In this document: positions 23,440 to 53,389 of the stretch, one piece after another
Layout of the letters: every line of letters starts with the position of its first letter
How positions within the stretch are numbered: the stretch's first letter is position 1
NCBI GenBank assembly: GCA_003194525.1
Contig: NBIV01000085.1
Span: 186,001-250,000, forward strand
DNA: 64,000 nt
Direction: 5' to 3'
Origin: Gracilariopsis chorda
Taxonomy: Eukaryota > Rhodophyta > Florideophyceae > Gracilariales > Gracilariaceae
The notes under the pieces: generated by a model
Told to the model about the DNA's origin: nothing
What the model saw: only the letters and a program-made list of their open reading frames with translations
Databases searched by the model: none
Made by a program: the position numbers and the translations under genes

Positions 23440-23780
23440 TCGGCTCAGGTTTGATTTTTTTTTGGGGGCGTAGACAAGTAGGGTTCCGAGCTGGCTCAAA
23501 GTAAAGATGCGCGTGAGGCTGGGAGTTTGGTTGTACCAAAGGTTGTAGGCAGATGGGTTGATGGTTTCATGGTGGATTAAGTTGTCCTTAAATATTGTAT
23601 CCCGTGCGGTATCCTCCTAGTATGTTTCGTGGAGCCCTTTGGTGTGTAGTAAGACCTTGACTGATTCTATGAATGGGCAGTTTAGGCTTTCGGCTATGCC
23701 GTTTTTTGGGGGATAATGTGTGGGGGGTAGGTGCAGCTGAGCACCTTCCAGGTGTTCTCGGAATGCTAGATAGAGGTGCT
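23440..23780 (-). pseudogene. Copia E integrase fragment
   Basis: Translation of the minus strand gives HYPPKNGIAESLN, then VKVLLHTKGLHETYWEDTA and NPSAYNLWYNQTPSLTRIF. This is the NG.AE.LN... GL...YW..A... TP...W...P pattern of the copia integrase core around the third catalytic Glu. One stop falls inside (GGAGGATACC preceded by TAG). Not functional. Confidence 0.7.
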
Positions 23781-23982
23781 AGATCGCAAGTTTCTTAGAC
23801 AAAAGCTCAAAAAGTACTACAAAAATGATAGATTCTGCTAGTTTCTGGCGCTTGCCAAGTAAAAAAATTTTTTTTTGGAATTCACACTTCCATATCTTAC
23901 ATAGCCTTGCCTCACCTGCACTGCGCGTCGCTAGTCTCAAGTTTGGAGCAAGTTCATTCTCCATTAAAAGCTAGATACAGAT

Positions 23983-24025
23983 CTCAAAATGGCGCTGGCC
24001 ACGCAGCGGCCAGCGCCATTTCGAG
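23983..24025. repeat. Perfect 14-bp hairpin, extended
   Basis: AAATGGCGCTGGCC pairs perfectly with GGCCAGCGCCATTT around ACGCAGC, and CTC/GAG extends the stem across one mismatch. Stable stem-loops of similar build occur at 56454-56506 and inside the two hairpin elements. Role unknown. No gene is recognised between 23791 and 24553; 24100-24470 is C/T-rich. Confidence 0.6.
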
Positions 24026-24553
24026 CACGCAACCCAAACTAACATATTTATTTCCATCTTTTGAATTTCAAACTTACTACTGCCCTAGTTTGACGTCCAA
24101 CTCATGCTAAGGAACTCATCTGGGCAGCTGTCTCCCTTCTCATACACCCGATGCACCGCGCACCAGATTCAAATACCACCAATTCAATTATCCTTCTCCC
24201 TTCCAAAATTCTCTCCGTAGTCCTAACAGACTCAAGTACACTCCTAAACATCACCATTCTTTCTCTCCCTCTCCCCTCATTCCATGCCTCCTCTTCAACC
24301 GACTCCAACCCTCCAATCCTTCTTCGTCCTTCTCCTTCAACCTCTTTCTCACAACACCCGTACCTCCAGGAGTAGCCGGAGACCCTCTCCCGACAGCACC
24401 TCCCATCCCATCTTCCCATCTACCTTCATACATCTTCTTAAATTCATGCCTGGCGCTCCATCGTAATCGCGATGGAGCACCATGACACCTCGGACCACGT
24501 ACCTCGACCCAAAACGAAGAGAAACATAATCCGAAGGAAACGGGTTCATTCAA

Positions 24554-27097
24554 GATGCACGGAACCGGAGAAGAGCTTATTGATGCTTATATTGCAGTTC
24601 GTGATGACTACGCAGCGACGAGGTGAAATGTGGATGAGCCGAGAAGTTTGAAGCACACCCACTTTGTCAACGTTCATGACTCTGCCAAGAAAATGTTTCT
24701 CACTCTCATTGGACCGGATTAAATCTCGTATTCGGACTCGGAGCTCCGTAACATGTCTCTCAGAGGCCCTCCACGTCAACTCTATCTTATGGAAAGAGTG
24801 GTGGACGTAAAGGACCGTGAAGAAGACAGGTGTGTAAGGGAATTTTGGAAGGTTTATTATAAAATGGAAGGGCTTAAAGGAATTCCCCGTAACGTGTTGC
24901 TATCTGTCTTTTGCAAGTCCTGTGTTTTGGGAGCAACCAAAAAATCTTCCGCTTTCCACACAGATCCTTGCACCAACTTTGAAATGGTCATTGGTTTGTC
25001 TATGGTGCAGCAGATTGCCGTGGATAAGAAAGGAAGTGGTAGGAAGACGAAAAGGGGCATGGCAGCTAAGAACTTCTCGAAAGTGATTTTGTCGGACAAG
25101 ACCCAGAGTCAGAGAGTCGAGTATGGTGTACAGCTGGTGACCAGGGCTTGGGATTATTTAGCCCAATTCCTCGGGTTTCCCAACGTTGAGGTTATGATCT
25201 TGCCTTACATTCGACTCGACTATATCAGTGTAGTCTTCACTGATATCGCACAACGCTTCATGGGCTTCCAACACAAAGATTGTTCCAAGCAGTTTGTGGA
25301 GGAGAAGAACGTCGCCACAATAGAAGAAAACGTTACCAAATGGGCATGGAATCTGCCAGGCCAGTGGATACAGCGCTTCGCCTTTTTGCCCGAGAATACC
25401 TTGGTGACCTTTGTAATGTGGTGCTACAAGAGAAACTATTCGACATCTCTGCTCCCAGCAAATGGGATGCCCTCAAAAGGTTCATCATCACGAGAACGAG
25501 GCTTTTCCCTCTGCGGTTTGAGAACTTTAGTGAATCTCTTGTCACTACGGTTCAAGAGGCCATAAAGCCTCTGAAGCTCATTGCATTGCATAGAAGCAAT
25601 GTCAAAGTACATCAACCTGTGAAACCAGAGCTCGCAGAAGACGTTGACATCATTATGGAGCCGGTAGAAACTGGTACGGCTGGTGGTGGGAACGAACGTG
25701 CTGAGCGTGTGGGAGGTGGTGATCAGGGTGAATTGGGAGAAGTGGAAGAGATAGAGATGGTAAAGGATGCGGAACGTGGTACTGCGGGACGTGGTACTGC
25801 ACCAAAGGCCAGTGAAGGACTGCAGACAACAGCTTTGTCGCCGAACTTTTCGTATGATGTCGAAGGCACGGGGATTCGTGCACCACCGTACCCTACGACT
25901 TTGGATGATGTGATAGCTTATAAGTATTTTGAGAAGGAGATGTCCCGCAACTTCCGTTTCCACAACTGCAAGTTCGAAAATCTCATCGAAGTTGACGACA
26001 ACAAGTCTGGCGAAAACGAGGTATCTATTGAAGGAAGGGTACAGTTCCTGCTTTCCGATCCGCCATATGGGACTCGTTCTGAGCATCGTTTGGAGAACAG
26101 CGAACACGGTGATCTGACAGAGAAGGGCATGAGCAGGTCAGTGAGGAGGTCTTCAAAGCTTCCACGTCCTGGTGGACATATTATACAGTTCTGCTCATGG
26201 GATCAGGTACCGTTGTGGCGGGATGTGCTACGGAAAGTTACCTACATGGATGACTCTGATACGATGCGTTACTCCTTGGTCGTCGACGAACAGCCCCTCC
26301 ATTTCGTACGGTCTTTAGGTAATACGACGGGTAACGTTGGGAGAAGAAGTTGCCGGTTGCACCAGACGACAGAATACGCTGTACATGCTGTTCGTTCTGG
26401 AGTTCCTTATGCACAACAGCACTGGATGGTCAACTATGAGAACTTCAATTATCTTGCTTCACTATACCCAGCGTATCCTGCAATCATGGATCAGGTGCCG
26501 CCGATGTCAAATAGTGAGATGCTCATGTGGTCTGTCAAAAACCCGGATGGGAGGTATACGAGGAAGAGGGTGCAACCGGAACAGAAGTGTAGGGCACTGT
26601 TGAAAGAGCTGATTTGCGGGTTCAGTCAGCCAGGAGACCTCGTGGTCGACATGTTTGCCGGAACGTTCTCGACAGCGATGGCGTGCATGGAACTGCCCAA
26701 GCATCGGAAGTTTGTGGGGTGTGAACCGGATAAAGTTTGCTTTGAACACGCCAGGCATGCCGCTATTGTTCGCTTCGCTTCCATAATACGGGAAGGAAAC
26801 ATGGATATGGAGAAGAGCCAGGAGCGTCGAAAGATGGCCCATTGTGTTTCCTCTGCATTCCCAATGGGAAGAAGCACGCACACCGTGTTATGGAGGGCTG
26901 TCGACAGATTTCCACCGTACCATATTCTTCCCCGACACCTTATCGACTTTCTCTCCACTTTGTGGCAAAGTGAAATTCTAGGGAAGTTGGGAAGGAAGGA
27001 TGCTATGGATGGATGGCCGAGGGAGCTGCAGGGAACAATGAATCTGGAGAACATGCAGTCTCTATTGGCAATGGAGGCTGTGCAATATGGGTTGTGA
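24554..27097 (+). pseudogene. DNA N6-adenine methyltransferase, beta-class, in a mobile-element setting
   Basis: The main frame (25280-27097) shows the order of a beta-class amino-methyltransferase such as CcrM or RsrI: motif IV FLLSDPPYG at 26045-26070, a target-recognition span, motif X-like KCRALLKELICGFSQPGD, then the SAM-binding motif I LVVDMFAGTFSTAMACMEL near 26640, followed by FVGCEPDKVCFEHARH. DPPY usually marks adenine-N6 methylation. Upstream coding continues in another phase (24753 to about 25350) and, past stops near 24612 and 24718, back to about 24554, so the original protein was probably near 800 residues. A Glu/Gly-rich linker precedes motif IV. The N-terminal part is unrecognised. 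Two nonsense codons and one frameshift make it inactive. The closing TGA (27095-27097) is followed in frame by the SET domain. A bacterial-type enzyme here implies lateral capture (inference). Confidence 0.75.
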
Positions 27098-27628
27098 GTG
27101 GGCAAGTCTACTACTCGTCACGAAAAGGCTGGTGTTGGAGTGTTTGCAACTCTTCGAATTGCTGCAGGTCTGACGAAGGATCGCTTCCAGAAGTATGCGG
27201 TGGAGATAGAAGTCTACGGTCAACAGTTCCAATCAATTCCACATCGAAAACAGCTGACGAATTGGCATGGAAAACAAGCAAACCCCATCTTCTGGGTGAT
27301 TCCTGCCCCTTTTTGTATTGTGGGGTATATCAACGATCCAAAGTAAGTGGAAGGGGATACACAGTTAGATGCCATGGTGGATGGCCTCTTGAAAAAAAGG
27401 GATGCTAATGTGCGAATGAAACGGACACCGGGAGTGGGACGAACACCAGGGGGAATAACGGACTACAAACTTATTAAGATGGAGGCGACAGCCGACATAG
27501 CTCAAGGAGAGGAACTCTTCGCCAGATACGGTGATGTTTATGACTGGCAAACCGATTTGAATGTGGAGGATGGAACGATAGTCACTTATTCGTTTGTTGT
27601 TATAAACCGTTCTCCACAGCTTGGCTAA
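27098..27628 (+). pseudogene. SET-domain protein lysine methyltransferase
   Basis: In the same phase as the methyltransferase and separated from it only by a TGA. The SET fold is recognisable from its two ends: KAGVGVFATLRIAAG (start of the domain) and, after FCIVGYINDPK and ANVRMKR, the closing signature TADIAQGEELFARYG. The region around the usual NHS.C.PN motif is atypical (KKRDANVRM). A TAA at 27344-27346 splits the domain; it sits inside GTAAGT, a possible 5' splice site, but no convincing intron follows. The frame ends at 27628. SET enzymes methylate lysines, usually on histones. Whether this was a separate gene or the C-terminal half of one DNA-plus-histone methyltransferase polypeptide cannot be decided. 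Confidence 0.7.
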
Positions 27629-27757
27629 AGAATGTCGTTTATTATGTGAACGGATGTCTAGTCCTAACTTAGGAAAATATTACTTTTCAGTAGGGATAGA
27701 AGATAAAAAGCGATATAGATGTGACACAGAAACGTCCATTCTCGGTACCACCGAGGA

Positions 27758-28693
27758 TTGTATTTTCAAGATTTCACAAAAAGCAAAGATTTTTGTGCGC
27801 ATCGGGTGGCGAGATTGTCCCAGAAAACACACGGCGTGCGCCAAACCAGAGCGCCACCAGCCACTTGTGCAAGAGTTTTGACTCCAAGAATCGCGCCGAA
27901 GGGAAAGAAGCGAGGCCCAGGAAGGGGTACTGTGGCGAGTGCGGCTAAGACGTGGGGAAAGGCTATTGGGGAGCGAACCGTGAGTGGAACGAAAGCAAAA
28001 TCATGTGTTCCCAGGAGCGGATTATCGGGGAGGAGGTCAAGAGAAGGTGCTTCGAAGAGAGGGGGAAGAGGTGGGGCAAAGAACGTCGGATCCGAGTGCA
28101 CGAAGAGTGAGTGCACGACGAGTGAGAGTTTGAAGGCTGATGCCCATGCGCATATAGCAGGCGGGAGAGATTCGGTTCGGGGACAGCGATCTATGCCTGG
28201 GTCGGGTGGTAGAGTGGAGGGTAAAAAATGGTTGGTTGTTCAGCAAACGGAAGAGGTAACAGATCAGGGAGGGTTGAAAGGAAATGCGCGGGTCGAAGAC
28301 CGAAATAAGGATGAAGATATGCCCGGAAGGAAACAAATAGAAGAGGCAGGTGCGCTGAAGAGAGGTGGGGCCCAAAGTGGAAACCAAGATGTAGGAGAGG
28401 TGGATGTCCCTTTGGAACGCAGTGATGGGGACGAAGAGGATCACATTGTGAAGGAGAGATGGACGAGAGATATGATAAACGAAGGAGTGGGACGCCACTC
28501 TAATTTAAAAGAGGAAACGCGAGAAGTGGAAGAAGTGGTCAGAGCGACGTATGGAATACAGGAAGCATCGAAAAGCGGAGACCGTACAAGCACACTCGTG
28601 CGGACACGAAAGGTGCAAGTGGCTGAAAACTTGGAAAGTGATAGAGGAAGCAGAACGCCGCAGACTCTGGAAGGCATGCGAGAGAGAAACTGA
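27758..28693 (+). CDS. Unrecognised basic/acidic low-complexity frame
   Basis: A frame of 311 codons in the same phase as the SET domain, after 130 bases with many stops. It is rich in Gly, Arg, Lys, Glu and Ser, with an AT-hook-like KKRGPGRGTV near its start and a charged second half. No fold is recognisable. The G/A-rich strand bias could create the frame by chance. If real it would be a disordered chromatin-binding part of the cassette. Confidence 0.3.
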   Translation: MYFQDFTKSKDFCAHRVARLSQKTHGVRQTRAPPATCARVLTPRIAPKGKKRGPGRGTVASAAKTWGKAIGERTVSGTKAKSCVPRSGLSGRRSREGASKRGGRGGAKNVGSECTKSECTTSESLKADAHAHIAGGRDSVRGQRSMPGSGGRVEGKKWLVVQQTEEVTDQGGLKGNARVEDRNKDEDMPGRKQIEEAGALKRGGAQSGNQDVGEVDVPLERSDGDEEDHIVKERWTRDMINEGVGRHSNLKEETREVEEVVRATYGIQEASKSGDRTSTLVRTRKVQVAENLESDRGSRTPQTLEGMRERN

Positions 28694-28819
28694 ATTGTTC
28701 ATCGGTCGCCAAGTGAACCTGCTGATGAGCGAAGCCTGCCTGTCAATGTTTTGGGAGATGCAGGAAATGACGACATCGGTGTGATTTCTTGATCTTCGTT
28801 AGTTGAGAGGGACAATATA

Positions 28820-29968
28820 TTGAGGGCAGAACTCGAACAGTTCAAAGGGAACCACTGCAGCCTAAAGATGTCCCTGAAGCTGACGCAAGAGGAACAGAAG
28901 AGGATGAGAGAAGAGATGAGCGAGAAGAATATATTGATAGGTAGCTTACGGGAATGGATGAAGGTGGGAAGAGGGGAGAGAAAGGGATCTGAAGGTGAAA
29001 ATGGCTTGAGAGGGAGTAGGAAGTATGTAGTTGATGTGCAAGAGAGTTTTTATGGGTTTGCCAGGGTATTATATGATAGGTTATTGTACTACGGGAAGGG
29101 GGAGGTATCGAAGTTTTGTTCTACTTCGGAAGGTGTGGAAAGACACTGGAAGAATCGATGCAAAGTATTGGAGAAGGGAAGAGAGTGGAGTGTGTTTGTC
29201 GTCGGAGGAAAGGAAATTGTGCCTCAATGTCCGTTTGAGATCGCGTCTGAGATGAGGTCGTACACGCCTTCGTCGCGAGGAGGAAGTAATGACAAATTGA
29301 AGTACTTGATTGGCATTGAGATTGAGGGGGAGAAATGGCAGTCGATTAGTGATGCGGGTAGGAAGGATCAATGCTTGCGGGAGGTTGTTGCGGACAGGTG
29401 TTTGAGGCAACGTATGAAGCAGAATTTGAGTGATTTGATCGGGATTTGGAAGCGTACGGCACTGCACAAAATGCTTTCATTGCTTGGATATGACTTGATC
29501 GCCAGACGTGTGAGACCGCGAGAGGGGACGGGGCTAGACATTGAGTTGAAGAAGCAGTTAGAGGAAGCAAAGACGAAGTTAAAGGGGGATGGGGAGGCGA
29601 AGAGTGGTAGTTTATGTTCTTGGAGGATGAGGACAATCGAGGATCTTACGTATTCTGGATTTCAGGTTGCTGGTCGGCTGAGGGAGTTTAGTGAAGAGGA
29701 CATGTACTTCAAGAACGGGGCTGCGGTGGAAGTGTTGGAAGAATTCATGGTATATGAGATGGGGACGGAAAGGGAGGGAAAGATGGAGTGCGTTGATGGG
29801 ACAGTGATACATTTGGCTCGTTTGGATGCGTGGATCGATTTTGATTTGACAGAAATAGACACAGATATTGGGCGTGGAGGAAGAAGGCAGTTGATATATT
29901 CTAGTTATACGGGGAATATCTTCGGATTGCGATGGAGAAAATACTTGGGGTGGCGTGGGAGAGGGTGA
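28820..29968 (+). CDS. Unrecognised 382-residue protein with coiled-coil start
   Basis: First about 45 residues look like a coiled coil (LTQEEQKRMREEMSEKN). The rest has the composition of a folded protein, with aromatic clusters (SFYGFARVLYDRLLYYG, YFKNGAAVEVLEEFMVYEMG) and no motif I recognise. It ends 71 bases before the LTR of element A. The preceding 28551-28784 frame may be an out-of-phase continuation. The minus-strand continuation of the KDZ/Plavaka-like gene overlaps its 3' end, so one of the two is not real there. Confidence 0.45.
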   Translation: MRAELEQFKGNHCSLKMSLKLTQEEQKRMREEMSEKNILIGSLREWMKVGRGERKGSEGENGLRGSRKYVVDVQESFYGFARVLYDRLLYYGKGEVSKFCSTSEGVERHWKNRCKVLEKGREWSVFVVGGKEIVPQCPFEIASEMRSYTPSSRGGSNDKLKYLIGIEIEGEKWQSISDAGRKDQCLREVVADRCLRQRMKQNLSDLIGIWKRTALHKMLSLLGYDLIARRVRPREGTGLDIELKKQLEEAKTKLKGDGEAKSGSLCSWRMRTIEDLTYSGFQVAGRLREFSEEDMYFKNGAAVEVLEEFMVYEMGTEREGKMECVDGTVIHLARLDAWIDFDLTEIDTDIGRGGRRQLIYSSYTGNIFGLRWRKYLGWRGRG

Positions 29969-30034
29969 GAGAACTACATCATGAAGAATTGGAAAATGAA
30001 GGTTGTGATGACGGTGACCCGCGTTTATAGCTAG
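29612..30034 (-). pseudogene. Possible continuation of the KDZ/Plavaka-like gene beyond element A
   Basis: If element A and one copy of its GAATG duplication are removed, the minus-strand frame arriving from 39650 continues in phase through 30034 to a stop at about 29612, adding about 140 residues. The added part is rich in Pro, Ser and His and lacks clear motifs, and it lies antisense to the 28820-29968 frame, so the extension may be fortuitous. Confidence 0.3.
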
Positions 30035-30039
30035 GAATG

Positions 30040-30847
30040 TGAAGTGCAACGCCCTCAGGGAGGGATTCCTGGTACTTGATCTTTTTCCCGATATTATCGG
30101 TTGTGTAGTGTATATATGAGCTACGCCCCACAATAGTGGGTATGGACACGTGGGACACGGTTTTGGGTCAACTGGCGGTTGGCCACAGTAGTGGATGTTG
30201 CCACGAAATGTGGAGTATTTTAGTTGATTTTATTTATTATTTTCACACCGATTTCTGGGAAGCTAGTACTTAGTGTGACGGCGCACTGCCGTCGCACCAG
30301 TAAACCTTCCACAACAAGGGAACCCAACCTGGGGAATTGGCTCTAGTTGTTACCGCTTGCGCGCGTGCTCTACTCCTCCTTGGAGGAAAACGCCGTAAAC
30401 CACGGGACATCTAACCCCCTTGCACATCTAAAGAGGCCCATGCTTGGGAGTATAATTGTTCCAATCACATTGGTGTTTCGCCCTGTATAGGGATATTGTT
30501 ACTGGCATCGCCGTTCGCCCCCGTCGCTCTCGCGACTCACCTCGTCCTCTCTTCCTCCTCTCCGCCCTTCCTTTTTCCCCTTTTTAAGGTAGCACCTCCC
30601 GCCATCCGCGTTCCTCGTGTGCGCATCCGTCCACACACACCCACTTACGTGGAAACATACCTCTACTGAGGATCACACTCCGCTCACGCGGATACCGATT
30701 CTTCGCCTTCACCTCCCTGCGCAAGTCATGACAGGTGTCCCTGGTCTTACAAACCGGCTTCGCCGTGACACCTCCGGGAGGGCTCTACCCAACTGGGTTC
30801 ACCTCGTGACAGGAAGATCCCGGACGTATTTCGGTGTTTTCTCTTTT
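30040..30847 (+). repeat. 5' LTR of element A
   Basis: Starts TGAAGTGCAACGCCC right after the GAATG duplication. The last ~25 bases seen in the other LTRs of the family (…GGGGCATTGCACCACA) are missing: sequence passes from TTCGGTGTTTTCTCTTTT straight to the primer site. Confidence 0.9.
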
Positions 30848-30849
30848 AG

Positions 30850-30869
30850 TGGTCTCGTGACTTAGAATC
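30850..30869 (+). other. Primer-binding site of element A
   Basis: TGGTCTCGTGACTTAGAATC, one base different from element B (TGGTCTCCTGAC...). The complement reads as a tRNA 3' end: GATTC, TAAG, a seven-base acceptor strand (TCAGGAG in B), A, CCA, again fitting a tRNA-Tyr-like primer. Confidence 0.6.
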
Positions 30870-30951
30870 GGTTTTTGTTTTCCCTCTTAAGAGGTTTGTT
30901 TTCATTCACCGGAAGTTCCGTGATCGTTTCCCTTCGTAACGGTATTATCTC

Positions 30952-33210
30952 ATGTCGAGAAATCCCTCCGATGCGGAGCCAGTGGTTACGCGTAGTCGCT
31001 CCCGCGACAACACCGACACTTCCGAAGTTCGGTTTGTACCCCGTATCCCTATACGGACAAGTTCCAGCCGTGCTGGCACCGCTTCACTGCGGAATGATAC
31101 CCCCGACCGGGAACCCCGGAACCTTCTTTTGCCCTCATTATCACCCCCACAGGGGAATGCAGCATCGACTCCGGCTGTTGCCGCAGTGCCCCAGGCACCC
31201 CGCCCTGCTCCCGCTGTCGCGGCTTCAAGCCCCCGTGGAACGGGCGATAACACCCCCCAGGGGACTTCCCTGGAATCCCAGGTCCGCGCTCTGTGAACCG
31301 CCCATGACACCCTTGTAGGGGAACTAAAATCCCTCCAAGAGGTGGTCTTGGCAACCCCCGTAAAGGAGGTTGTCGAGGAACTCCGTATTTTACGGTCTGA
31401 CGTCAACTCCGTGTTGGAGAGTTTGGGACAACCCACCACCTTCATCGAAGGAGTTGAAGCCCGATTTGATCGGATTGGTGCCCGCCTGGAGACGCTGGAG
31501 CAGTTCGTCCTCATGGACAAACCATCCCCGGATGATCCGGTAAACGAGGCATCGCACAACGACCAGCTTGCTGGGAAGAAGAAACGCCGTCACCGACGGA
31601 AACACCACCGAAAATATTCGGACTCCGATTCTTCGACATCGTCGGACTCATCCCGAAACCATTCGGTTAGCTCGAGCTTCTCGGACTCTGACTCGGAGGA
31701 CGAGAAGCGAGGCTACTCTTCCCACTCGAAGCGGTCATCGGCCACTGAAGGTGTGATCCGAACCCGCCAGAAGGGGAGAAGACACCCCGGTCTCCGGGAA
31801 TTGAAACCGACAAACCCGGATTACCGGAAGCTTTTATCATACCGGTACTACCAGCTCGAAGATTCGTCACTTGGACGTACGACCCGTGCTACGGGAAAGG
31901 TGCGAGAATGCATTAAGCGAATGAAGCTCTCGCTCCGCAACCAGTATTTTACTGGAGAGGACCCAGTCCTGGTACTGGATTTCTTATCCTGCTTTGTAGC
32001 GGAGGGCGATATCCTCTGTATGAATGAGGTACAAGCCTATTTGGCTTTACCGTATTTCTTACGGGGAGTGGCGGAGGACCAATACAATTCTGTCAGAGGA
32101 TCTTGTCGTGCCTCCGAGGGATGGGTTACTTGTGGGCCGGAGGCTGTGCAGTATCTTCTGCGCTCCTACGCCACAAACACCGCTATTCAGCAGGCTATCC
32201 TCGCTTTGCGAGATACACGCCAGCGTGCTGGAGAGACAGAGACCGACTACTCGGTGCGCCTTAACAAGGCTTTCCACAGATGTGGTAACGTATACCCCGC
32301 TGGGAAGTGCATTACCATGTTCATCGATGGTCTTGACCCGGCAATCCGGAGTTTAATTACCCGTTATCGGGAGGACAAGCGGGGGATCACCTATCTCGAG
32401 CTGGTCCAACACGCTCGAGCGGAAGGGGATGCACTTCGTGCAAGAACTCCGAACAATCGGTCTAAATCCGCCAAGGCGTTTTTGCTAGAAAGCGAAGCTT
32501 CCTCACTCCCGCTCACTGCGGATGGGAACCCTGGACAGGGATTTGATACGGTGCATTTAGTGCAGGGGGATGGTGTGTCGATACCCACCAGTGATTTGCC
32601 GTCGACGACGGAGATGACCCGTGATACGGGAACAAAAGATCCCGTTCTATACGGTGGTAACGGTCGGGTCCAACCCCAACGAATCCCGTTTTCAAACGGT
32701 TATTTCCGTTATCAACGGCCTGGATGGACTGACACCCGCCCTGCGGTTCGCTTCTCCGATACTCGGAATAATAAACTGCGTGTCGCGGTGTTGGATCTCA
32801 TTTGCCAGCTTTGTTATGCCCATTGCCATACCTCGCCTCAGTGTATCTGCTCACTGAAGGATATGGCCAAGGTGGTGGCAAACTACGAGGCCCTCACTCC
32901 AGAGGAGAAACGTTCCGTCCCAACGGCTTCCTACCTCCGTGCTAAAACGGACTTTTCCCATGCCCTACCACAGAACCCGCGTGCGCAGCAAGCTTCATAC
33001 GCCCTGATTCGGGAGATCACGCAACCATCCGTTGCAACCCCCGCTTATGTGGATAGAAACCCCCGTCAACGGGATGAAGCACTCGTTGTCGAGGAACCCA
33101 ACCCACCGCCAAAGGCGGAAAACTATCTGAGGGAGTCTCCCCTTTGGGAGAGGCGTCATCAGACAAGAGGCTGTTGGCGCCAGAGGCGTCCTCGCATCGC
33201 TCCCCGGTGA
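30952..33210 (+). pseudogene. gag: gag of element A
   Basis: Start chosen at the ATG in TCTCATGTCGAG, shared with element B. Residue order: basic/Pro-Ala-rich N-terminus, coiled region, a Ser/Asp-rich tract (SDSDSSTSSDSS, SDSDSEDEK), the capsid-like segment (SEGWVTCGPEAVQYLLRSYA, RQRAGETETDYSVRLNKAFH) and a zinc knuckle CQLCYAHCHTSPQC (CX2CX4HX4C, about 32803-32844). A TGA at 31294-31296 replaces the Trp codon of element B. The end overlaps protease in the -1 phase. Gag forms the particle and binds RNA. Confidence 0.9.
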
Positions 33211-34166
33211 AAGTCCTCTCGAGGAAAGACACCGCTGACGCGGGCTCTGCGCACCTCGGTATGTTGCGTCGCCCGTGGATATGGAGTAAAAATCCCCGGA
33301 TTCCCGGTAGAGTCTTGGTCTTGGCCAAGCGCAATTACAAGGTCTATTCCGACCTTGGCGTTGATCCCCGGTTTATGGTGAGGTTTCTCACCGTTCTGGA
33401 TACAGATGCAGGCCCCAACTTTGTTGTGAAATCATTGTTACCCCCGCTTGTGCGGTCTCGTATCCGCTCTGACGCGGTCCCCGACATTTCGGATGCGAAA
33501 AACAATCCGTTACAAACGGTGGGCACAGTGGACCTCGTCGTGAGACTTGGTACCTCTGTGGTGAAGTTGGACTTCATCGTTTGCCGTTCATTGGCAGCAC
33601 CAGTCATACTGGGATGTGATTACTGCGACAGATTTGTCGACGCAATCAGGCCCCGCCTCAGACATGTAGAACTTGACGACGGATCGTCGGTTCCGATTCT
33701 TCGCCGCCCGCTAAAGCGGTCCTCTCGGAAACACGTTCCGCTCCCTGCTGCGCAGGAACCACCGCCCGCGTCCTGCGAGTCCACCAAGCTCTGCGTCGCT
33801 GCCTCAGTTTCTATACCGCCTGAGTCCCAGGTCTGGGTGCAGGTAAATTCCCGTCAACACGGTCTTCGGGATATACAACCCCTCGCCTCGTTGTACGAGA
33901 AATCCCAGCTGGCGCTGGCTAATGGAACTGTCTCCATTTCCCCGGATGTTCCTTTCCGGTTATTGGTTGCCAACCTTGGCAGACACCCCCAGTATTTGGT
34001 AAAACACCAAGTAATTGGGAGTGTAACCCCCCATCTTATGGGAATGCTGCCAACGAAGATGACAGCCGCCGATTTATTCGGAGTTACCACCTCTTCTGCG
34101 GAGTTCGCCCCGCCGTCCGAAGACGCCAAGTCTAAGGAGGGGGAAGAAACCGCTACTTCAGCGTAG
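33144..34166 (+). CDS. Aspartic protease of element A
   Basis: 340-residue frame in the -1 phase relative to gag. The framework around AAPVILGCDYCDRFVDAIRP is intact, but the catalytic box reads VLDTDAGPN instead of DTG (element B VLDTGAGPN), so activity is doubtful. The frame ends with TAG at 34164-34166, and the RT frame follows in the same phase, an arrangement also found in B. The listed ATG may not be used if the protein is made by frameshifting: the -1 frame is open upstream of it. Confidence 0.85.
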   Translation: MGEASSDKRLLAPEASSHRSPVKVLSRKDTADAGSAHLGMLRRPWIWSKNPRIPGRVLVLAKRNYKVYSDLGVDPRFMVRFLTVLDTDAGPNFVVKSLLPPLVRSRIRSDAVPDISDAKNNPLQTVGTVDLVVRLGTSVVKLDFIVCRSLAAPVILGCDYCDRFVDAIRPRLRHVELDDGSSVPILRRPLKRSSRKHVPLPAAQEPPPASCESTKLCVAASVSIPPESQVWVQVNSRQHGLRDIQPLASLYEKSQLALANGTVSISPDVPFRLLVANLGRHPQYLVKHQVIGSVTPHLMGMLPTKMTAADLFGVTTSSAEFAPPSEDAKSKEGEETATSA

Positions 34167-34187
34167 AACATACCGAGTAACTCGGAA

Positions 34188-37100
34188 TTGCGAACCACAC
34201 CTGTTCGACAGGACAATGCTCCATCGAGCAACGACCGGATTGATCTGGAAAAGGCACTTGAAGCGCTGGCCTTCAGCCACGTGCCAGAGTCGCACCGCGA
34301 CAAACTCCGTACAATGTTACGGGAATTCACCACAATGTGGGATGGCTCGCTTGGCGAGATTAATGCAACGGAACACCGGATCGATTTATTCCCCGGTGTG
34401 CGACCGGTTGCACAACCCCCTTACAGGGCAGTTTCGAAAGCTCGGGAAGAGGAGCAGTCCCAAGTGGACAAGATGCTCCGCGCAGGTGTGATTGAACCCG
34501 CTCAATCACACTGGGCATCCCCAGTTGTACTGACTTTAAAGGCCGACGGAACCTGGAGGTTCTGTGTCGACTACCGCCGGCTCAATGCCGTGACTGTTAG
34601 GGACACGTACCCTATCCCTCGTATGGACGAGTGCATTGACTCCCTTGGAGACGCCACCGTGTTCACGGCCCTCGATGCCAATTGGGGATATTGGCAAGTA
34701 CCTCTCAGAGAGGAGGATCTCGACAAAACCGCATTCACCTGCCACTCAGGAACGTACCGCTTCAAGCGGATGCCATTTGGGTTAACCAACGCCCCCGCCA
34801 CCTTTCAGCGTGCAGTACATATTCTACTAAACCGCTTTAAGTGGCAGAGTTGTCTGGTCTATCTTGATGATATTATCATCTTCTCCACCTCGTTGGACGA
34901 CCATCCCACTCACGTCCGAGACGTGCTGACCGTACTCCGCGATGCGGGAATTACCCTCAAGTTGAGGAAATGCGAGTTTTTCACAGATACTGTGAAGTAT
35001 CTGGGTCAAATTATCCGTCCTGGACGGTTAGCGATCGAGAAAGCTCGAGTCAAATCCCTCGTTGAGGCGAAAGAGCCCCGTACTCAAACGGAACTGCGCT
35101 CCTTTTTGGGGCTGGTCAACGTCTATCGATGGTTTATCCCGAACTTTTCGGATACCGCGGCGCCCCTGAACGCGTTATTGCGAAAGGGGAACCCCCCAAA
35201 ACTGGGAACATATACGCCCGAGCAATCGGAAGCCTTTAACTCCTTGAAGAATGCTGTCACATCAGCACCAATCCTGCATCTCCCAAAACTTGGGTTGCCA
35301 TACTCCGTAGATACGGACTCGATTGACTACCAAGTCGGGTGTGCTCTTTTTCAAACCACCCCCGAGAGGGAACGAAACCCAATTGGTTATTGGTCGCGCT
35401 CGCTCAATGTTCATGAGCGGAACTACTCCGTATCGGAGAAAGAGTGCCTCGCCGTCGTATGTGCGATAACCATTCTGCGCCCCTACCTTATGGGAGTTCA
35501 CTTCACCGTGTACACGGATCATTCCTCACTGATTTGGGTAATGAATATCTCCGACCCGTCGGGACACCTCATGCGCTGGATACTCCGCCTCACGGAATAT
35601 GACTTCCATGTCATTTATAAAAAGGGCGCGCAGAACACCCAAGCCGACGCTCTGTCGCGGTTACCCACAAGTGGGGAAGCACTCCCAACGGAGGATGATG
35701 AAGTCCCATGTTTCATGGCCATAGACCCGGATGATCCGGAATGTGCCGTCGAGGCTGGGCCAGAAAACTGGGACGAGGATGCTGACTTTGACGAACTACT
35801 CGCATTGCGAGATGAACCTGAGAACCCGTTACCGGGAAACTTTGTACCGGTATCACCGGAAGAAATGATCCGAGAACAATTCGGCGACCCATTCTGTACG
35901 AGGATTCGTGCCCGTATCAACGGTGGTGAAGATCTCCCTTTCGGGGTAAAAGACAAAGGCTATCTCGTAAGGAAAGTCGAAACCCGCCCACAGATTTTGA
36001 TACCTCATTCCCTGCAGTCGCGGTTGTTACATCTATCACACTACGCCACCACTGGAGGTCACCCAGGTGGGAGGAAACTCTACCTAACCCTGCGAAGGGA
36101 TTTCTATTGGCCCGCCACGGCGGTGGACTGCTACGCAACCGTGCGGTTTTGTAGCGAATGCGCGAAGAATCGCGTGAAACTCCGCAATAATGCGAAGGAG
36201 ATGAAACTATTCCCCGCAAGGGCGCCACTCGAGTTTATCGCGATCGATATTCTCGGACCACTACTCACCACGAAACGTGGAAACAAGTTTCTACTTGTCA
36301 TTACCGACCGCTTTTCTAAGCTGGTACGGACTGTCCGTCTTCGGAGGATAACCGCTCTCACGGTGGCCCAGTCTCTGGTGACGCACTGGATTCTCGTCTA
36401 CGGTCCCCCGGTGGAGGTGCTCTCCGACAACGGGAAACAGTTCGTGAGCAAGTTCTTCCAGGATGTTTGTCGCATCCTGGATGTCAAGAACTTGTTCACG
36501 ACTACCTACCACCCCCAGTGTAATGGGCAAGTTGAACGGTTTAACCGGACGTTACTCGCGGCGTTACGTTCCTACGTCGCTGACCACCCAAAGAACTGGG
36601 ACATGTACGCTAATGCGGTAACCTACGCGTACAACACGCAGGTACACCGGACTACCGGAGGTTCGCCATTCGAGTTGGTTCTATCTAGAACACCCCCGCC
36701 TGTGGCGCTGGAACCCCAATCTACCTTGGACAATTTCCCATCACTGGGTATCTACCGGCAACAATGGAAGCAATGGCTTTCCAAGCTGGTCCCAGCTGCG
36801 CAGAATTCTATGGCACGGGACCAAGCCGCTTACAAGCGGGATTTTGATGCTCGCCTGCGAGGGAAACCGTCCCTGATTCGGGCGAATAACTACGTCTTCA
36901 TCAGGAAGGAGTACTACAACCCGGAACGGGAGAAGCGCCCTAAACTCCCGCCTGTGGCGGATGGACCATTCAAGGTCATCTCTGTGAACACCGACACTGT
37001 CGTGGTAGAGATGGGCGACACGCACGAACGGATTTCCCGTGATCGTTTTGTCCTTGCCCCTTCTCCCTCGTCAGAGGTAGTCCTGGACCCAGGCAACCCC

Positions 37101-38438
37101 GTTTTTACGGACTCTGCAACACCGGAATCCTCCGGGAGTACTAGGCCTTCGGTACTACCACACCCCAGCCTGGGACTCTCAGACCTACCGACCCTGTGGG
37201 ACTCACCGGCTCAGCCGGGTAATTCGGGCCTCTCAGCACCCGCCCCTACCACGCCCGCCCCCCTGGCGCGAATTTATACCCGCCAGGCGGGGAATGTTAT
37301 TCCTTATCCCGCCGCTCCGTCTACGGAGGGGGAGGAGAACACTCGTTTTCGAGGAACGATATCGCCGTCGCAACGGGAAACACGGAACATACGGAACACT
37401 GACCGTGGAGCACGGAGTATGTCACACGACACTAATCCCCCGTTCTCGAGCAGTGCTGCGCAACAAGAAACAGACGCGCGGACCCCGCACAAGTGGCAAT
37501 TATACCGTGCTATACGAGAGGTTGAAGCGCAACTACTGCACACCCCTGTCAGGGAAAAAGGCAGCCGAGCCGCAGTCGCAGCTTTAGGCCCTGGCGCGCA
37601 AGCGCCGGAAACGCCTCCCGTCGTCAAGGGAATCGAAGCCTCCGCTCCGGGGAGTAATTTGCACCAACCCCCGCAACGCTGCGGCGAAGAACCGAGGAGC
37701 TGGGGAAAAACGCGCGCCATTGCACGCTCGAAACCGGTCGTATCGGACGCTGTCCCTCCTCATGGAGACGGTGCAGCGCGCTTAACGGCAATTCTCCTGA
37801 AAAGGGTGTCATCGGCACCTGCCCGGCACCCCCCAAAGGGGAATTTTGACAAAAATACCGGTGTACCGGAGTTAGCCCCAGGCAACCCGTCAGTAGCCGG
37901 GGACACCACGGCGTCACCGGAACGTATGGTGCATAGCGCGTGTGCACCTGGCAGGGAGGCGGAACGCTTACCAATCACCGTGCCGCACGGGACCCCGCAG
38001 GGGATGTCGCAAACGCCGTTCCCGCATACGTGGCAAAGACCCCGCAAGCTCGCGGTTCGCGAAGATGACCGCACTCGTGGAGTTCCCTTCCCCCGCCGAC
38101 TGGCGGTTCGCCCGGCCTACCGTGATGACGGGAACAACGACGCCCCTCTGGGGAATGAATTGCCGTTGAAAACCGTGACGCCACACACCCTCTTGAGGGA
38201 TATCCTCCCGCACGAGCAGCGGTTGCTACCACAGCGCACGGCAACGCCGGAGTTATCGCCTACAACCCTGATGGGGGGCCAACATACCGCACAGCGGGCA
38301 ACCCTCGCAAGGGAGTATAACCACCACCCTGCACGGCCAGCAGGTCTACGAACGAGAGTTCATAATAGACCGACTTGTCGGACACACCTGGGACCAGGAT
38401 GGTATTCTACAATACCGCGTCCGCTTGTACGGGTATGA
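34188..38438 (+). CDS. pol: RT, RNase H and integrase polyprotein of element A
   Basis: 1416-residue open frame. RT: FCVDYRRLNAV (34560), TALDANWGYWQVP, FGLTNAPATFQ and the catalytic CLVYLDDIIIF (about 34860). RNase H: VDTDSIDYQVGCALF (35310) through VYTDHSSLIWV and ADALSRLP (35650). Integrase: HHCC zinc site (HLSHYATTGGHPGG, CSECAKNR), then Asp in AIDILGP (36240), Asp in LSDNGKQF (36425), Glu in GQVERFNRT (36530), and a GPF-type segment (ADGPFKVIS, 36960). From about 37050 a disordered Pro/Arg/Thr-rich linker of over 400 residues follows. The frame runs past the chromodomain in the wrong phase. Same phase as protease, after the TAG at 34164. Confidence 0.95.
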   Translation: MRTTPVRQDNAPSSNDRIDLEKALEALAFSHVPESHRDKLRTMLREFTTMWDGSLGEINATEHRIDLFPGVRPVAQPPYRAVSKAREEEQSQVDKMLRAGVIEPAQSHWASPVVLTLKADGTWRFCVDYRRLNAVTVRDTYPIPRMDECIDSLGDATVFTALDANWGYWQVPLREEDLDKTAFTCHSGTYRFKRMPFGLTNAPATFQRAVHILLNRFKWQSCLVYLDDIIIFSTSLDDHPTHVRDVLTVLRDAGITLKLRKCEFFTDTVKYLGQIIRPGRLAIEKARVKSLVEAKEPRTQTELRSFLGLVNVYRWFIPNFSDTAAPLNALLRKGNPPKLGTYTPEQSEAFNSLKNAVTSAPILHLPKLGLPYSVDTDSIDYQVGCALFQTTPERERNPIGYWSRSLNVHERNYSVSEKECLAVVCAITILRPYLMGVHFTVYTDHSSLIWVMNISDPSGHLMRWILRLTEYDFHVIYKKGAQNTQADALSRLPTSGEALPTEDDEVPCFMAIDPDDPECAVEAGPENWDEDADFDELLALRDEPENPLPGNFVPVSPEEMIREQFGDPFCTRIRARINGGEDLPFGVKDKGYLVRKVETRPQILIPHSLQSRLLHLSHYATTGGHPGGRKLYLTLRRDFYWPATAVDCYATVRFCSECAKNRVKLRNNAKEMKLFPARAPLEFIAIDILGPLLTTKRGNKFLLVITDRFSKLVRTVRLRRITALTVAQSLVTHWILVYGPPVEVLSDNGKQFVSKFFQDVCRILDVKNLFTTTYHPQCNGQVERFNRTLLAALRSYVADHPKNWDMYANAVTYAYNTQVHRTTGGSPFELVLSRTPPPVALEPQSTLDNFPSLGIYRQQWKQWLSKLVPAAQNSMARDQAAYKRDFDARLRGKPSLIRANNYVFIRKEYYNPEREKRPKLPPVADGPFKVISVNTDTVVVEMGDTHERISRDRFVLAPSPSSEVVLDPGNPVFTDSATPESSGSTRPSVLPHPSLGLSDLPTLWDSPAQPGNSGLSAPAPTTPAPLARIYTRQAGNVIPYPAAPSTEGEENTRFRGTISPSQRETRNIRNTDRGARSMSHDTNPPFSSSAAQQETDARTPHKWQLYRAIREVEAQLLHTPVREKGSRAAVAALGPGAQAPETPPVVKGIEASAPGSNLHQPPQRCGEEPRSWGKTRAIARSKPVVSDAVPPHGDGAARLTAILLKRVSSAPARHPPKGNFDKNTGVPELAPGNPSVAGDTTASPERMVHSACAPGREAERLPITVPHGTPQGMSQTPFPHTWQRPRKLAVREDDRTRGVPFPRRLAVRPAYRDDGNNDAPLGNELPLKTVTPHTLLRDILPHEQRLLPQRTATPELSPTTLMGGQHTAQRATLAREYNHHPARPAGLRTRVHNRPTCRTHLGPGWYSTIPRPLVRV

Positions 38439-38556
38439 CCCCAGTGGGGATATGTGGGAGCCAATCGAACACCTCCCACGGTCGCAGGTCGTGCGATACC
38501 ACCGTCAAACGGAAACTGCAGCCCCAGCTGCGCTGGTTAATGCCCAAGTCGGGTAA
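38341..38556 (+). pseudogene. Chromodomain of element A, out of phase
   Basis: A +1-phase stretch of 71 codons plus TAA: EFIIDRLVGHTWDQDG, LQYRVRLYGYDPSGDMWEP, IEHLPRSQVVRYHR, ending NAQVG. It matches the C-terminal chromodomain of B and C. In A a small indel in the linker leaves it outside the pol frame, so integration targeting would be lost. Confidence 0.8.
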
Positions 38557-38800
38557 CGTCACCGCGCGAGCGGAGGGCGATAGGAAAGGATAACAAGGCA
38601 AGGTCCGTCGAAGACGGGGAACTCAAACGAGAATCACCGTTCTAAACGGGAACGTTTATTCAAGAGAGCAGCTAGCTCCCCACAACACTATACTAAAATA
38701 GCTGGCTATGCCAGGAAAGAAGAACCGGAGACGGCGCACGCGCTTTTATCACCCATTTTCGTCTGGGAACCCTCCGCGTCCGCAGTCGTTTTCCCGTCTT

Positions 38801-38811
38801 AGGGGGGGATA
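38801..38811 (+). other. Polypurine tract of element A
   Basis: AGGGGGGGATA immediately precedes the 3' LTR (TGTAGTGCAA at 38812); the same tract precedes the 3' LTR of B. It primes plus-strand DNA synthesis. Confidence 0.8.
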
Positions 38812-39644
38812 TGTAGTGCAACGCCCTCAGTGAGGGATTCTTGGTACTTGAACGATTTCCCGATATTATCGGTTGTGTAGTGTGTATATGAACTAGGCCC
38901 CATTATGGTGGATATGGACACGTGGGACACGGTTTTGGGTCAATTGACGGTCAGCCACAGTAGTGGATGTTGCCACGAAATGTGGAGTGTTTTAGTGGAT
39001 TTTATTAATTATTCTCACACCGATTTCTGGGAAGCTAGTACTTAGTGCGACGGCGCACTGCCTTCAAACTAGTAAACTTTCCCCAACAAGGGACCCCAAC
39101 CTGGGGAATTGGCTCTAGTTGTTACCGCTTGTGCGCGTGCTCTACTCCTCCTTGGAGGGAAACGCCGTGAACCACGGTAAATCTAACCCCCTTGCACATC
39201 TAAAGAAGCCCATTCTTGGGGATATAATTGTTCCAATCACATTGGTGTTTCGCCCTGTATAGGGAGTCCTGTCCACGGGCATTGCCGTATTTGTTCGTCG
39301 CTCTCGCGACTCACCTTTGCACACTCGTCCTCCTTTCCCTTCACTCTCCTCCTTTCCCCCTTTCAGGGTAGTACATCCCGCTACCCGCGGCCTCGCCTGT
39401 GTGCACCCGCTCACACTTCCCCACTTACGTGGATACATACCTCTACTGAGGATCACACCCCGCGCACGCGGATACCGATTCTTCGCCTTCACCTCCCTGC
39501 GCGAGTCGCGACAGGTGTCCCTGGTCTTACAAAGCGGCTTCGCCGTGACACCTCTGGGAGGGCTCTACCCAACTGCGTTCACCTCGTGAGAGGAAGATCC
39601 CGAAAGTCTTTCGGTGTTTTTCCCGTTTGGGGCATTGCACCACA
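38812..39644 (+). repeat. 3' LTR of element A
   Basis: TGTAGTGCAACGCCC ... GGGGCATTGCACCACA, 833 bases, followed by the GAATG duplication. Terminal inverted bases TGTAGTGCAA/TTGCACCACA. Confidence 0.95.
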
Positions 39645-39649
39645 GAATG

Positions 39650-40835
39650 GGAGTAGAGAAGCGAAAGTTGCGCTGTGAATACCTTCGAAACGAAAGATTG
39701 CGGAGATGGCGCGGTGAATAAGCGCCATTCTTGTTTCATGTGGGATGTTGGAGGACGAATTTGGGATGGAGTATTCGTCGCCAGTGGAGGAAGAGGGGGA
39801 GAAGAAAGTTGGGAGGTATCCGAGTACGGTGAGGTTTTGGGAGACACAATTTCGGTGGAATGCGTCGGAGAGGTTGAGAAGGGTGATGTGAAGGGGGTAG
39901 GAGGTGATAGAGGAGCCTTTGAGTGAGGTTACAGACTTATCGTAGTATAACTGGACGAGACCGACGAATGATTCCATACCGGTTGTTTCGGGGGTGTGCC
40001 AGACGATATCATTGATGTGGCACTGCGTGATGGCCTGTTTAAAGACAAGAACGACTTTGTTTCTGAAGGCTACGGCCATAAGATGGGCAAAGGCGGGGGT
40101 TGGAGAAGAGTAAGGTGACGAGTGGGACACGCGTTGTAAGAAGATGTTGTTGAAGTGTGCGAGAGCGAGTTGTTGCTTCAGGACGTCTATGGCGTCTTTT
40201 TGGAAGAGAGTTGCGGAGAAGGAGTTTTGTTCGTCGGAGATTGTGAAATGGAGAAAACTGGTGGAGTTGATACGTCCCTTGACGAGGTGTTCTTGGAGTG
40301 CGAGGCACTGCTTTGCGGAGGAGATGGATTTCTGGAAGGATGACTTGGAGAAGTCTGGGTGGTTGAGAAGGGAGATGAGTTCGTCGGCTTTGCGTGTGCT
40401 GAAGGAGGAAGCGATGGAGGAGATGCAGAGGACGAGTTGCTCAAGATGGGGGTTGTTGAGGAGAGGGGAGGGGGATTGGGACGACGTATGGGGAGGTGGG
40501 TTTGAGGAGGAGACTGAACAGAGGGCGTGACTTGCCATGTGGTGTGCGTCTTGTGTTTGGAGGGAAAGGGAGGCCTGCGGGATGTGATAGTGTTCATCTT
40601 CGGCGAGGGGGACATTGTCGGAGAAGCGGTGTGAGGGAGTGGGAGGAGGAATGGTAGAGATGTTTAGAACGGATTTTCGTCGCTTGGTCCTTGGAGGGAA
40701 CTGGACGGGAGCGTTGGCGGAGGAGGAAGGGCGTTTATCGGGGGTGAGTCGATGAGGGCACCTGCGTTGATGACTCTGGAGAGAGAACGCGGTGCGGCCA
40801 TAGAAGGTGCAATGGAGATGGCAACAGGGTATCAT
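39650..40835 (-). pseudogene. KDZ/Plavaka-like transposase, interrupted by element A
   Basis: The frame is open from 41033, but the start is best placed at the Met complementary to 40833-40835, directly before a zinc finger CHLHCTFYGRTAFSLQSHQRRC (C-X3-C-X12-H-X3-C), as these transposases usually begin. Farther on come a polar segment and the conserved palm-like block: LVQLYYDKSVTSLKG, ITSYPLHITLLNLS, then LTVLGYLPTF, which follows the D-K-T/S ... YP.Y...N ... LLGYLP pattern of KDZ/Plavaka enzymes (first catalytic Asp in YYDKS). Element A, with the GAATG duplication, cuts the gene after FASLLP. The remaining DDE residues would be downstream of that point and were not identified. Confidence 0.6.
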
Positions 40836-41033
40836 GGCGGGGGAAGGAGAACGGAGAACGGGATGCTTGGAAACAGAGAAGGGAGGGTGGTGGCGGAGTG
40901 GGATATCGGGGAGCGTAATATTATGGCGCACGTAGATGAGGTGGTGCATGTGATGCAGAGCGTCTTTTCGTAGGGCGTGGGGTAGAGCATGCGAGGCAGG
41001 GAGCAGGTCGGGCAACGGGTGATAGAAATACAA

Positions 41034-41400
41034 AGCTATTTGGTTATGTACCCGCTATGTATCTATTCTATCTATTCTATTTTGCTATTTGAAGCGGCAC
41101 TCCCGCAGGACCAGTAAGATTTGGATTCCACGTGCACCTGAGAGGGTAGGTATTAGTGGAGTCTGGCGGTAGTTTTACCTCCAAAGAAACTGGGAAATGT
41201 CTAGTATACTGCTAGTCCTTTGTCCCAAGCAAACTAGCTCTGTGCTATGTATGAAATTATTTTGAGAAATTTGATTCATTCAAAATTGGGTTTGAAGAGT
41301 CGTTATTCGTTCATTTTATTTTTTTGCCTTTTGAATGCCAAACTAGCATAACGAGAACACCGACGTGTACGTGCTGACAATAAACCGAACGTAAGTCTAA
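41034..41400. other. Intergenic, possible outer end of the KDZ-like element
   Basis: AT-rich, with short direct repeats (TATCTATTCTATCTATTCTA near 41057). No gene. If the methyltransferase cassette and the transposase gene form one element, its right end should be here; no terminal inverted repeat with the 23.8-24.5 kb region was convincing by eye. Confidence 0.35.
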
Positions 41401-45128: not shown

Positions 45129-45140
45129 TATCCCCCCCTA
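45129..45140 (-). other. Polypurine tract of element B
   Basis: Minus strand TAGGGGGGGATA directly before the 3' LTR, identical in core to that of element A. Confidence 0.8.
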
Positions 45141-45383
45141 AGACGGGAAAACGACCGCGGACGCGGAGGGTTCCCAGACGAAAATGGGTGATAAAAGCGC
45201 GTGCGCCGTCTCCGGTTCTTCTTTCCTGGCATAGCCAGCTATTTTAGTATAGTGTTGTGGGGAGCTAGCTGCTCTCTTGAATAAATGTTCCCGTTTAGAA
45301 CGGTGATTCTCGTTTGAGTTCCCCGTCTTCGACGGACCTTGCCTTGTTATCCTTTCCTATCGCCCTCCGCTCGCGCGGCGACG

Positions 45384-50048: not shown

Positions 50049-50069
50049 TTCCGAGTTACTCGGTATGTT

Positions 50070-51092: not shown

Positions 51093-51109
51093 AGGGGAGA
51101 CTCCTTCAG

Positions 51110-53284: not shown

Positions 53285-53366
53285 GAGAAAATACCGTTAC
53301 GACGGGAAACGATCACGGAACTTCCGGTGAATGAAAACAAACCTCGTAAGAGGGAAAGCAAAAACC

Positions 53367-53386: not shown

Positions 53387-53389
53387 CTT

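Follow-up and report, generated by a model that had tools for sequence, protein, structure and literature searches.

The window analysed here, a stretch of 64,000 nucleotides from contig NBIV01000085.1, contains a defunct copy of a DNA transposon of the Plavaka type, whose better-preserved relatives in the same genome encode a putative DNA methyltransferase and a SET domain in a single protein. The copy extends from position 23751 to 41365 and is far larger than the methyltransferase-SET region to which the initial annotation had pointed. We are close to certain of the anatomy of the element, i.e., that it is a Plavaka-type transposon encoding a transposase, the methyltransferase-SET fusion, a protein of 821 amino acids (aa) and an open reading frame (ORF) of 276 aa. 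For the complete reading, which leads from this anatomy via the predicted methylation of adenine in element DNA and the predicted action of the SET half to an expressible chromatin state, we assign a probability of about 0.5. A mobile element may then write marks on DNA and chromatin with one enzyme.

Architecture and Mobility of the Element

The best-preserved copy read, C53, spans 11,851 bp between inverted ends of 23 bp (CGTCGGTGTT(C/T)TCGGAATGCTAG), which match at 22 of 23 positions. Its genes are arranged in the order 276-aa ORF (minus strand), methyltransferase-SET fusion (plus), 821-aa ORF2 (plus) and 1160-aa transposase (minus), with all lengths counted from stop to stop. The transposase matched the Plavaka family PF18759 over residues 320–613 with an E value of 2.7e-21 (76.6 bits vs. 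a cut-off of 26.3). With regard to the features of CMCT transposases, namely the DDE residues, a C(2)C motif between the second D and the last E, and an H(3–4)H motif, we placed tentative counterparts by eye: CPRC at residue 510, the stretches YSDKSAT (372), CADIPEA (488) and FEHAH (811) with candidate acidic residues, and PLHNFHLG at residue 606. Neither ORF2 nor the 276-aa ORF matched any Pfam family at E values up to 10. ORF2 has a basic N-terminus; it showed one public relative with 91% identity among 8000 candidates and no credible match to solved structures (best E value 0.27).

The end pattern, searched with up to two mismatches, occurred 267 times in the genome compared to four times for the reversed control. 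Among 30 loci with this pattern, nine copies had both ends, and all nine were flanked by a target duplication of 2 bp, with the third base matching in none of them. The target duplication of C53 is also 2 bp long, which extends the count to ten of ten copies with both ends read. After joining the flanks of C53 with the duplication kept once, we found the sequence uninterrupted with 96–100% identity at all 40 places scored (from 70 candidates), including two places with 100% identity over 180 bases. C53 has inserted cleanly into a different repeat, and one frame of this hosting repeat stays open across the joined site. The ORFs of the surrounding repeat (flanks L033 and L034) resemble MULE/FAR1-type transposases by eye.

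The termini of the element (CGTCGG..CCGACG) match neither TGT..ACA (PlavakaA) nor CATCA..TGATG (PlavakaB). Therefore, it stands outside both fungal subgroups of PMC12730594 with respect to its termini, and the label Plavaka-type refers to its transposase alone. The same source gives target duplications of 2–5 bp for elements of the CMCT clade, to which Plavaka belongs, with 2 bp for PlavakaA and 2–3 bp for PlavakaB, and CA..TG termini for most CMCT elements.

Other assignments of the element were rejected. It is not a part of the neighbouring Gypsy elements, because the Gypsy sits inside the transposon. It is not a DIRS retrotransposon, since C53 carries a Plavaka-type transposase instead of the reverse transcriptase and tyrosine recombinase of such elements, and the Pfam matches above cut-off in its four proteins name only N6_N4_Mtase, SET and Plavaka. 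HarbingerS was dismissed because the transposase is of the Plavaka type and the SET domain is fused to the methyltransferase.

The Fused Gene in Other Copies and in Public Relatives

The assembly comprises 91.3 Mb on 1081 contigs, and a search of it with the methyltransferase ORF of the window gave 84 matches (71 of 370 candidates scored). When the query was the full-length protein of a single copy (43 of 402 candidates scored), the search yielded at least four unbroken frames of 1065 aa without any stop, namely in C53, C332, C241 and C745, and a fifth full-length copy, C48, with one TGA in this frame. All five are 99–100% alike and carry both domains in one frame. The C53 protein matched N6_N4_Mtase (PF01555) at residues 518–756 with an E value of 3.6e-18 and SET (PF00856) at residues 882–1044 with an E value of 8.9e-5 (23.3 bits vs. 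a cut-off of 22.4). Because both domains lie in an open frame of 1065 aa, they belong to one protein, so the initial annotation, which had placed the two in one mobile element either fused or side by side, holds in its fused form. The open frames rule out two neighbouring genes, and chance motifs are ruled out by the Pfam matches and the conservation.

At the 30 loci fetched out of the 84 matches, the window copy among them, the two domains were always adjacent on the same strand and reached at least family residue 1063; unlinked domains were not seen. A single alignment spanned both domains at 14 of these loci, and the other 16 showed a frame change between the domains by our own count. A bacterial gene or contaminant was rejected as well: all 34 loci confirmed on prokaryotic contigs matched the methyltransferase part alone (query residues within 477–803) and none the SET part. 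In viral contigs, none of 39 stretches was confirmed as a relative.

Ten public proteins (P0001–P0010) matched the window ORF among 8000 candidates scored. P0001 and the C53 protein share 94% identity, while the remaining nine show identities of 27–44% to P0001. In the alignment of these ten with C53, PF01555 was matched by all 11 members and SET by eight at E values up to 0.1; P0010 is a fragment that stops before the end of the SET domain. The DPPY, QK and FxGxF stretches of the methyltransferase are kept in all members long enough to include them. A profile search for more relatives returned P0001 alone (7997 candidates scored).

The fused gene is also linked to the other genes of the element. 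ORF2 lies downstream on the same strand at 62 of 71 merged methyltransferase places (61 at a distance of 1.7–2.5 kb, one at 7.6 kb); nine places lack it in this position. A search for the transposase, with 40 of 405 candidates scored, showed 21 of the 40 places in convergent orientation to a methyltransferase place within 16 kb, with the methyltransferase places from both searches pooled (84 in total). The transposase place of C332 has a second methyltransferase place on the same strand about 15 kb away, which comes from a second copy. All linkage counts are lower bounds.

Selection on Both Halves of the Fusion

We compared the C53 gene with 30 older copies (29 loci and the window copy) by the Nei-Gojobori method using our own script. 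The median ratios of nonsynonymous to synonymous substitutions (dN/dS) were 0.19 for the N-terminal part, 0.20 for the methyltransferase, 0.22 for the middle part and 0.21 for the SET domain, at median synonymous distances (dS) of 0.8–1.2. Among the older copies themselves, the respective medians were 0.86, 0.85, 0.96 and 0.97 (383–433 pairs). The low values towards C53 compared with the values near 1 among the older copies indicate that both domains were constrained before the old copies died. Judged from these substitution patterns, both halves of the fusion are under purifying selection. The comparison of C53 with the window copy gave dN/dS values of 0.28 for the transposase (405 codons), 0.26 for ORF2 (706 codons) and 0.33 for the 276-aa ORF, the latter based on only 41 codons.

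The Methyltransferase and SET Halves

The C53 protein contains DPPY at residue 524, RPEQK at 696 and DLFAGTF at 721, with DPPY placed before motif I, which reads FAGTF rather than FxGxG. The beta class of these enzymes is assigned from this order, in which the catalytic motif IV (DPPY) precedes motif I. Among solved structures, the family profile matched DpnA (9e-13) and CcrM (2e-7), with MboIIA and RsrI also among the best matches; we take all four to be adenine enzymes, partly by name. N4-cytosine enzymes were matched with E values of only 0.19 and 0.22. By its sequence, this half appears to be a beta-class (CcrM/DpnA-type) adenine methyltransferase, with adenine as the probable base modified.

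The SET domain scored 28.5 bits in P0002 and 20.5 bits in P0001, just below the cut-off passed by C53. A profile of six chosen members reached whole-sequence E values of about 2e-6 for KMT2C and KMT5A, composed of separate SET-N and SET-C stretches, and the single stretches of the top match were weak (0.016 and 1.2). The underlying alignment omits P0001 as near-identical to C53, P0010 as truncated, and P0004, P0005 and P0008 as degenerate. In all six chosen SET domains, both glycines of the GxG motif, an Asn-Asp pair, an arginine with a second asparagine, and the terminal tyrosine are invariant, but the His and Cys of the usual NHSC motif are replaced. The Pfam and profile matches identify a SET domain by sequence, with lysine as its presumed target.

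Proposed Function and Alternative Explanations

The initial annotation is borne out in part: one mobile element, one fused protein and constraint on both halves are supported, while the marking of the element's own DNA and chromatin, which it had also proposed, is a prediction. In the mechanism we favour, the transposase would move the element, and the fusion protein would act on copies that have just been made or inserted. The methyltransferase half of this protein would most likely write N6-methyladenine (6mA) on the element DNA, which we propose because the motif order and the DPPY motif match those of N6-adenine enzymes. The SET half would most likely methylate a lysine of histones or associated proteins in the vicinity, or at minimum bind to this site. 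The likely purpose would be to counter silencing by the host through a chromatin state in which the element stays expressible. More tentatively, the single polypeptide may be a dual writer, which marks DNA adenine and histone lysine in the same place and thereby sets up a heritable state independent of host cytosine methylation, with the enzyme family kept by selection in several eukaryotic lineages; we hold this extension to be possible rather than probable. It is disputed whether 6mA is a genuine written mark in eukaryotic nuclear DNA at all. The element offers a concrete place to look for it, and for a direct link between DNA methylation and lysine methylation within a single protein.

Several observations weigh against this mechanism. 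No methyltransferase place was found among those listed for 19 of the 40 transposase places, some of which are at contig ends. Moreover, no more than the C-terminal part of the fusion is left in several recent derivatives; the losses seen in some comprise the N-terminal 424 residues, or these together with the end of the SET domain. Because such recent derivatives without a full-length enzyme exist, deleted copies still move, presumably in trans. The contrast in dN/dS values amounts approximately to one deep split between the C53 lineage and the older group, not to 30 independent comparisons. With respect to host silencing, CpG transitions in the old copies (L001–L030) were recorded at 0.036 and 0.042 compared to 0.017 and 0.019 for other C/G transitions, and this approximately twofold excess is a hint that cytosines were methylated at some time. 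Therefore, we do not conclude that the host is devoid of 5-methylcytosine, despite the lack of any match to the C5 cytosine methyltransferase domain PF00145 in the assembly (10 of 14 control genomes were positive). PF05063 had no matches either, but none of its controls was positive, so this result carries no weight. Finally, the usual SET motif NHSC reads N-D in the six better SET domains, with His and Cys replaced, and both the GxG motif and the terminal tyrosine are lost in P0004, P0005 and P0008, i.e., in three of the nine public relatives that reach the end of the domain. Part of the family may therefore have no lysine methyltransferase activity.

These changes in the SET motifs lead to the alternative that survives best. 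The SET half may be non-catalytic and serve as a binding module, which guides an active adenine methyltransferase to the chromatin or to the transposase. We consider this a serious possibility, albeit not the favoured one: the Pfam scores near the cut-off are consistent with it, and the chromodomain of N4CMT provides a precedent (PMC8885841). However, the SET domain is as constrained within the genome as the methyltransferase (0.21 vs. 0.20), and its core residues, including the glycine pair and the terminal tyrosine, are invariant in the six chosen members.

In bacteria, Dam methylation regulates the transposition of IS10 and Tn5. The adenine mark may correspondingly control transposition in the present case, with methylated ends timing or limiting excision and the effects on chromatin being secondary. 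An enzyme that is encoded inside the element and is approximately as constrained as the transposase would suit such a role, and the Dam-IS10 case appears as a precedent in a reference title of PMC3627910. We nevertheless regard this explanation as unlikely, since it leaves the selected SET domain unaccounted for and the recent derivatives were mobilised without a full-length enzyme, although an action in trans is possible.

Somewhat more doubtful still is an action of the methyltransferase half on another base or polymer, such as N4 of cytosine or RNA, substrates known for amino-methyltransferases with this fold. PF01555 includes N6-adenine and N4-cytosine enzymes alike, and four of the 11 aligned members weakly matched families of RNA methyltransferases, TRM5-TYW2 among them, at E values up to 0.1. 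However, the best solved matches are adenine-N6 DNA enzymes, far ahead of those for N4 of cytosine, and the DPPY tetrapeptide is typical of N6-adenine enzymes. The fusion as a passive cargo, i.e., a host gene riding in the transposon without any effect on it, is very improbable: transposons can carry captured genes, and the transposase places without a methyltransferase place would fit, but the gene order is the same in old and young copies, purifying selection acted between lineages at dS values of about 1, and even the distant public relatives keep the methyltransferase and mostly a recognisable SET domain.

Two deletion derivatives that were read, C7 (7.1 kb) and C144 (8.0 kb), are devoid of large inner parts. 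Beside the 276-aa ORF, deletion derivatives contain an extra ORF of 417 aa (L071:1526-2779, minus strand) or a 287-aa part of it (L072:5727-6590, plus strand), which is absent from C53. It looks like a multi-pass membrane protein by eye, and a search against Pfam gave only a meaningless weak match (ECF_trnsprt, E value 5.9). A larger form of the element with five genes may exist.

Relation to Known Systems

The element falls into the known class of transposons with epigenetic enzymes, and its new features are the fusion itself, the persistence of this fusion under selection, the Plavaka-type carrier and the probable red algal host. Among the titles and abstract starts listed in searches of the open-access literature, none described a transposon with a fusion of adenine methyltransferase and SET; Repbase Reports and most subscription papers are outside this scope, and a prior description is possible. 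The methyltransferase of DIRS elements is of a Dam-like class distinct from the beta class. In humans, the SETMAR gene joins a SET domain to a mariner transposase and includes no DNA methyltransferase.

Genes of the TET/JBP type are carried by Plavaka and ten other transposon lineages (PMC12730594). The fungal TET/JBP Plavaka elements share the transposase family with the present element, the 2-bp target duplication (as in PlavakaA) and an epigenetic cargo enzyme, but their cargo is a demethylating dioxygenase instead of a methyltransferase-SET fusion, their termini differ, and their hosts are fungi, whereas the present host is probably a red alga. The same paper cites SET genes in the HarbingerS and MuDR elements of Phytophthora, which likewise represent SET genes in DNA transposons but belong to other transposase superfamilies; the text covered here mentions no DNA methyltransferase for them.

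DNMT genes occur in LINE, DIRS and Gypsy retrotransposons, with Dam-like enzymes in DIRS (PMC5890265). DIRS thus resembles our element as a transposable element encoding an adenine DNA methyltransferase, whereas all three types are retrotransposons, and the term 'SET domain' appears zero times in the text of that paper. In bdelloid rotifers, N4CMT joins a bacterial amino-methyltransferase to a chromodomain (PMC8885841). It shares with our fusion the combination of a bacterial enzyme of the N6_N4_Mtase family with a eukaryotic chromatin domain, but it is a host gene writing N4-methylcytosine, its chromodomain is a reader, and SETDB1 is a separate protein there. Methyltransferases have also been described in virus-borne mariner elements (PMC3627910), and SETMAR (Metnase) is similar to our case as a chimera of a SET domain and a transposase (PMC4593633). 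The new enzyme combination joins a growing list of transposon-borne epigenetic enzymes.

The Decayed Copy in the Window

The window copy consists of the following parts:

23751..23769, plus strand: left terminal inverted repeat (GGTGTTCTCGGAATGCTAG); the outermost CGTC of other copies is altered here
24272..24397, minus strand: remnant of the 276-aa ORF, family residues 236–276 (tblastn, 71% identity)
24540..27583, plus strand: decayed methyltransferase-SET fusion gene, family residues 24–1063 (comparison with an open copy)
26039..26746, plus strand: N6_N4_Mtase domain with DPPY (26057), RPEQK and FAGTF (26654) in the beta-class motif order
27098..27625, plus strand: broken SET domain with its N-terminal start, an in-frame loss of 31 aa, the stop at 27344–27346 and its C-terminal end
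27818..30024, plus strand: ORF2, cut off by the Gypsy insertion (tblastn, two pieces at 48% and 78% identity)
30040..39644, plus strand: Gypsy long terminal repeat retrotransposon nested in ORF2, with TG...CA ends and the 5-bp duplication GAATG (by eye)
39645..39698, no strand given: transposon piece directly past the Gypsy (blastn to copy C53)
39693..40919, minus strand: truncated Plavaka-type transposase, family residues 47–457 of 1160 (tblastn, 66%)
41343..41365, minus strand: right terminal inverted repeat, ending in CACCGACG

The initial annotation had named DPPY at 26057 and FAGTFSTA near 26654, and we located both motifs as described. It had also placed the start and the end of a SET domain in the same phase after a single TGA. 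The common frame is correct, but a second stop intervenes: after the TGA (27095–27097), the frame continues with AGVGVFATLRIAAG, is interrupted by TAA at 27344–27346, and resumes with IAQGEELFARYG. Compared with an open copy, the gene changes frame near 25362, is interrupted by stops at the family residues 52, 91, 870 and 982, and has lost the family residues 67–73, 305, 894–924 and 1050–1051. The TGA, the further stops, the frameshift and the loss of 31 aa from the SET domain represent decay.

The domain searches proposed with the initial annotation gave a clear result for the methyltransferase, as the ORF at 25244–27097 matched PF01555 with an E value of 2.5e-15 over residues 266–501. For the SET domain, the support comes from C53 and not from the window, where the score stays below the cut-off: the first SET piece matched no Pfam family, and the last one matched SET with an E value of only 0.11. 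This poor score is due to the loss of residues 894–924, which removes much of the N-terminal half of the domain, together with the stops and the frameshift.

Within the nested Gypsy element, a reverse transcriptase (RVT_1, 3.1e-35) and an integrase core (1.2e-10) were matched. Between the adjoining transposon piece and position 39703, the window copy lacks about 2.3 kb that the longer copy C53 contains, and because of this loss only residues 47–457 of the transposase are left. The ORF at 39582–41054 matched PF18759 with an E value of 0.001, below the cut-off. The target duplication is unreadable at the window copy itself, where the outermost left bases are changed.

Genome Setting and Neighbouring Features

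The assembly contains seven phycobilisome-linker domains (113–145 bits), four of them on the element-bearing contigs C12, C60, C144 and C153; the same search in 14 control genomes matched only Synechococcus. From these domains, we take the host to be most probably a red alga, or with lower likelihood a different alga that bears phycobilisomes. The assembly also contains an open frame of 329 aa at G000:C193:122113-122385 (minus strand) that matched PF00502, a family of phycobilisome proteins, with 28.1 bits.

Rfam gave no matches within the window, whose observed/expected ratio of CpG is 0.96. A fragment of a DDE_Tnp_4 transposase (2.1e-13), which we take to be Harbinger-like, is present at 2479–3090 on the minus strand. 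At 61915–63891 on the plus strand, there is an ORF for a diverged reverse transcriptase, which is DIRS-like by eye and matched RVT_1 with an E value of 2.6e-6 (27.7 bits, below the cut-off of 29.6). Besides the Gypsy copy at 30040–39644, the window contains another one at about 44353–54196 in the opposite orientation, and the two are 98% complementary over 6,415 nt; this inverted pair could give rise to a hairpin transcript.

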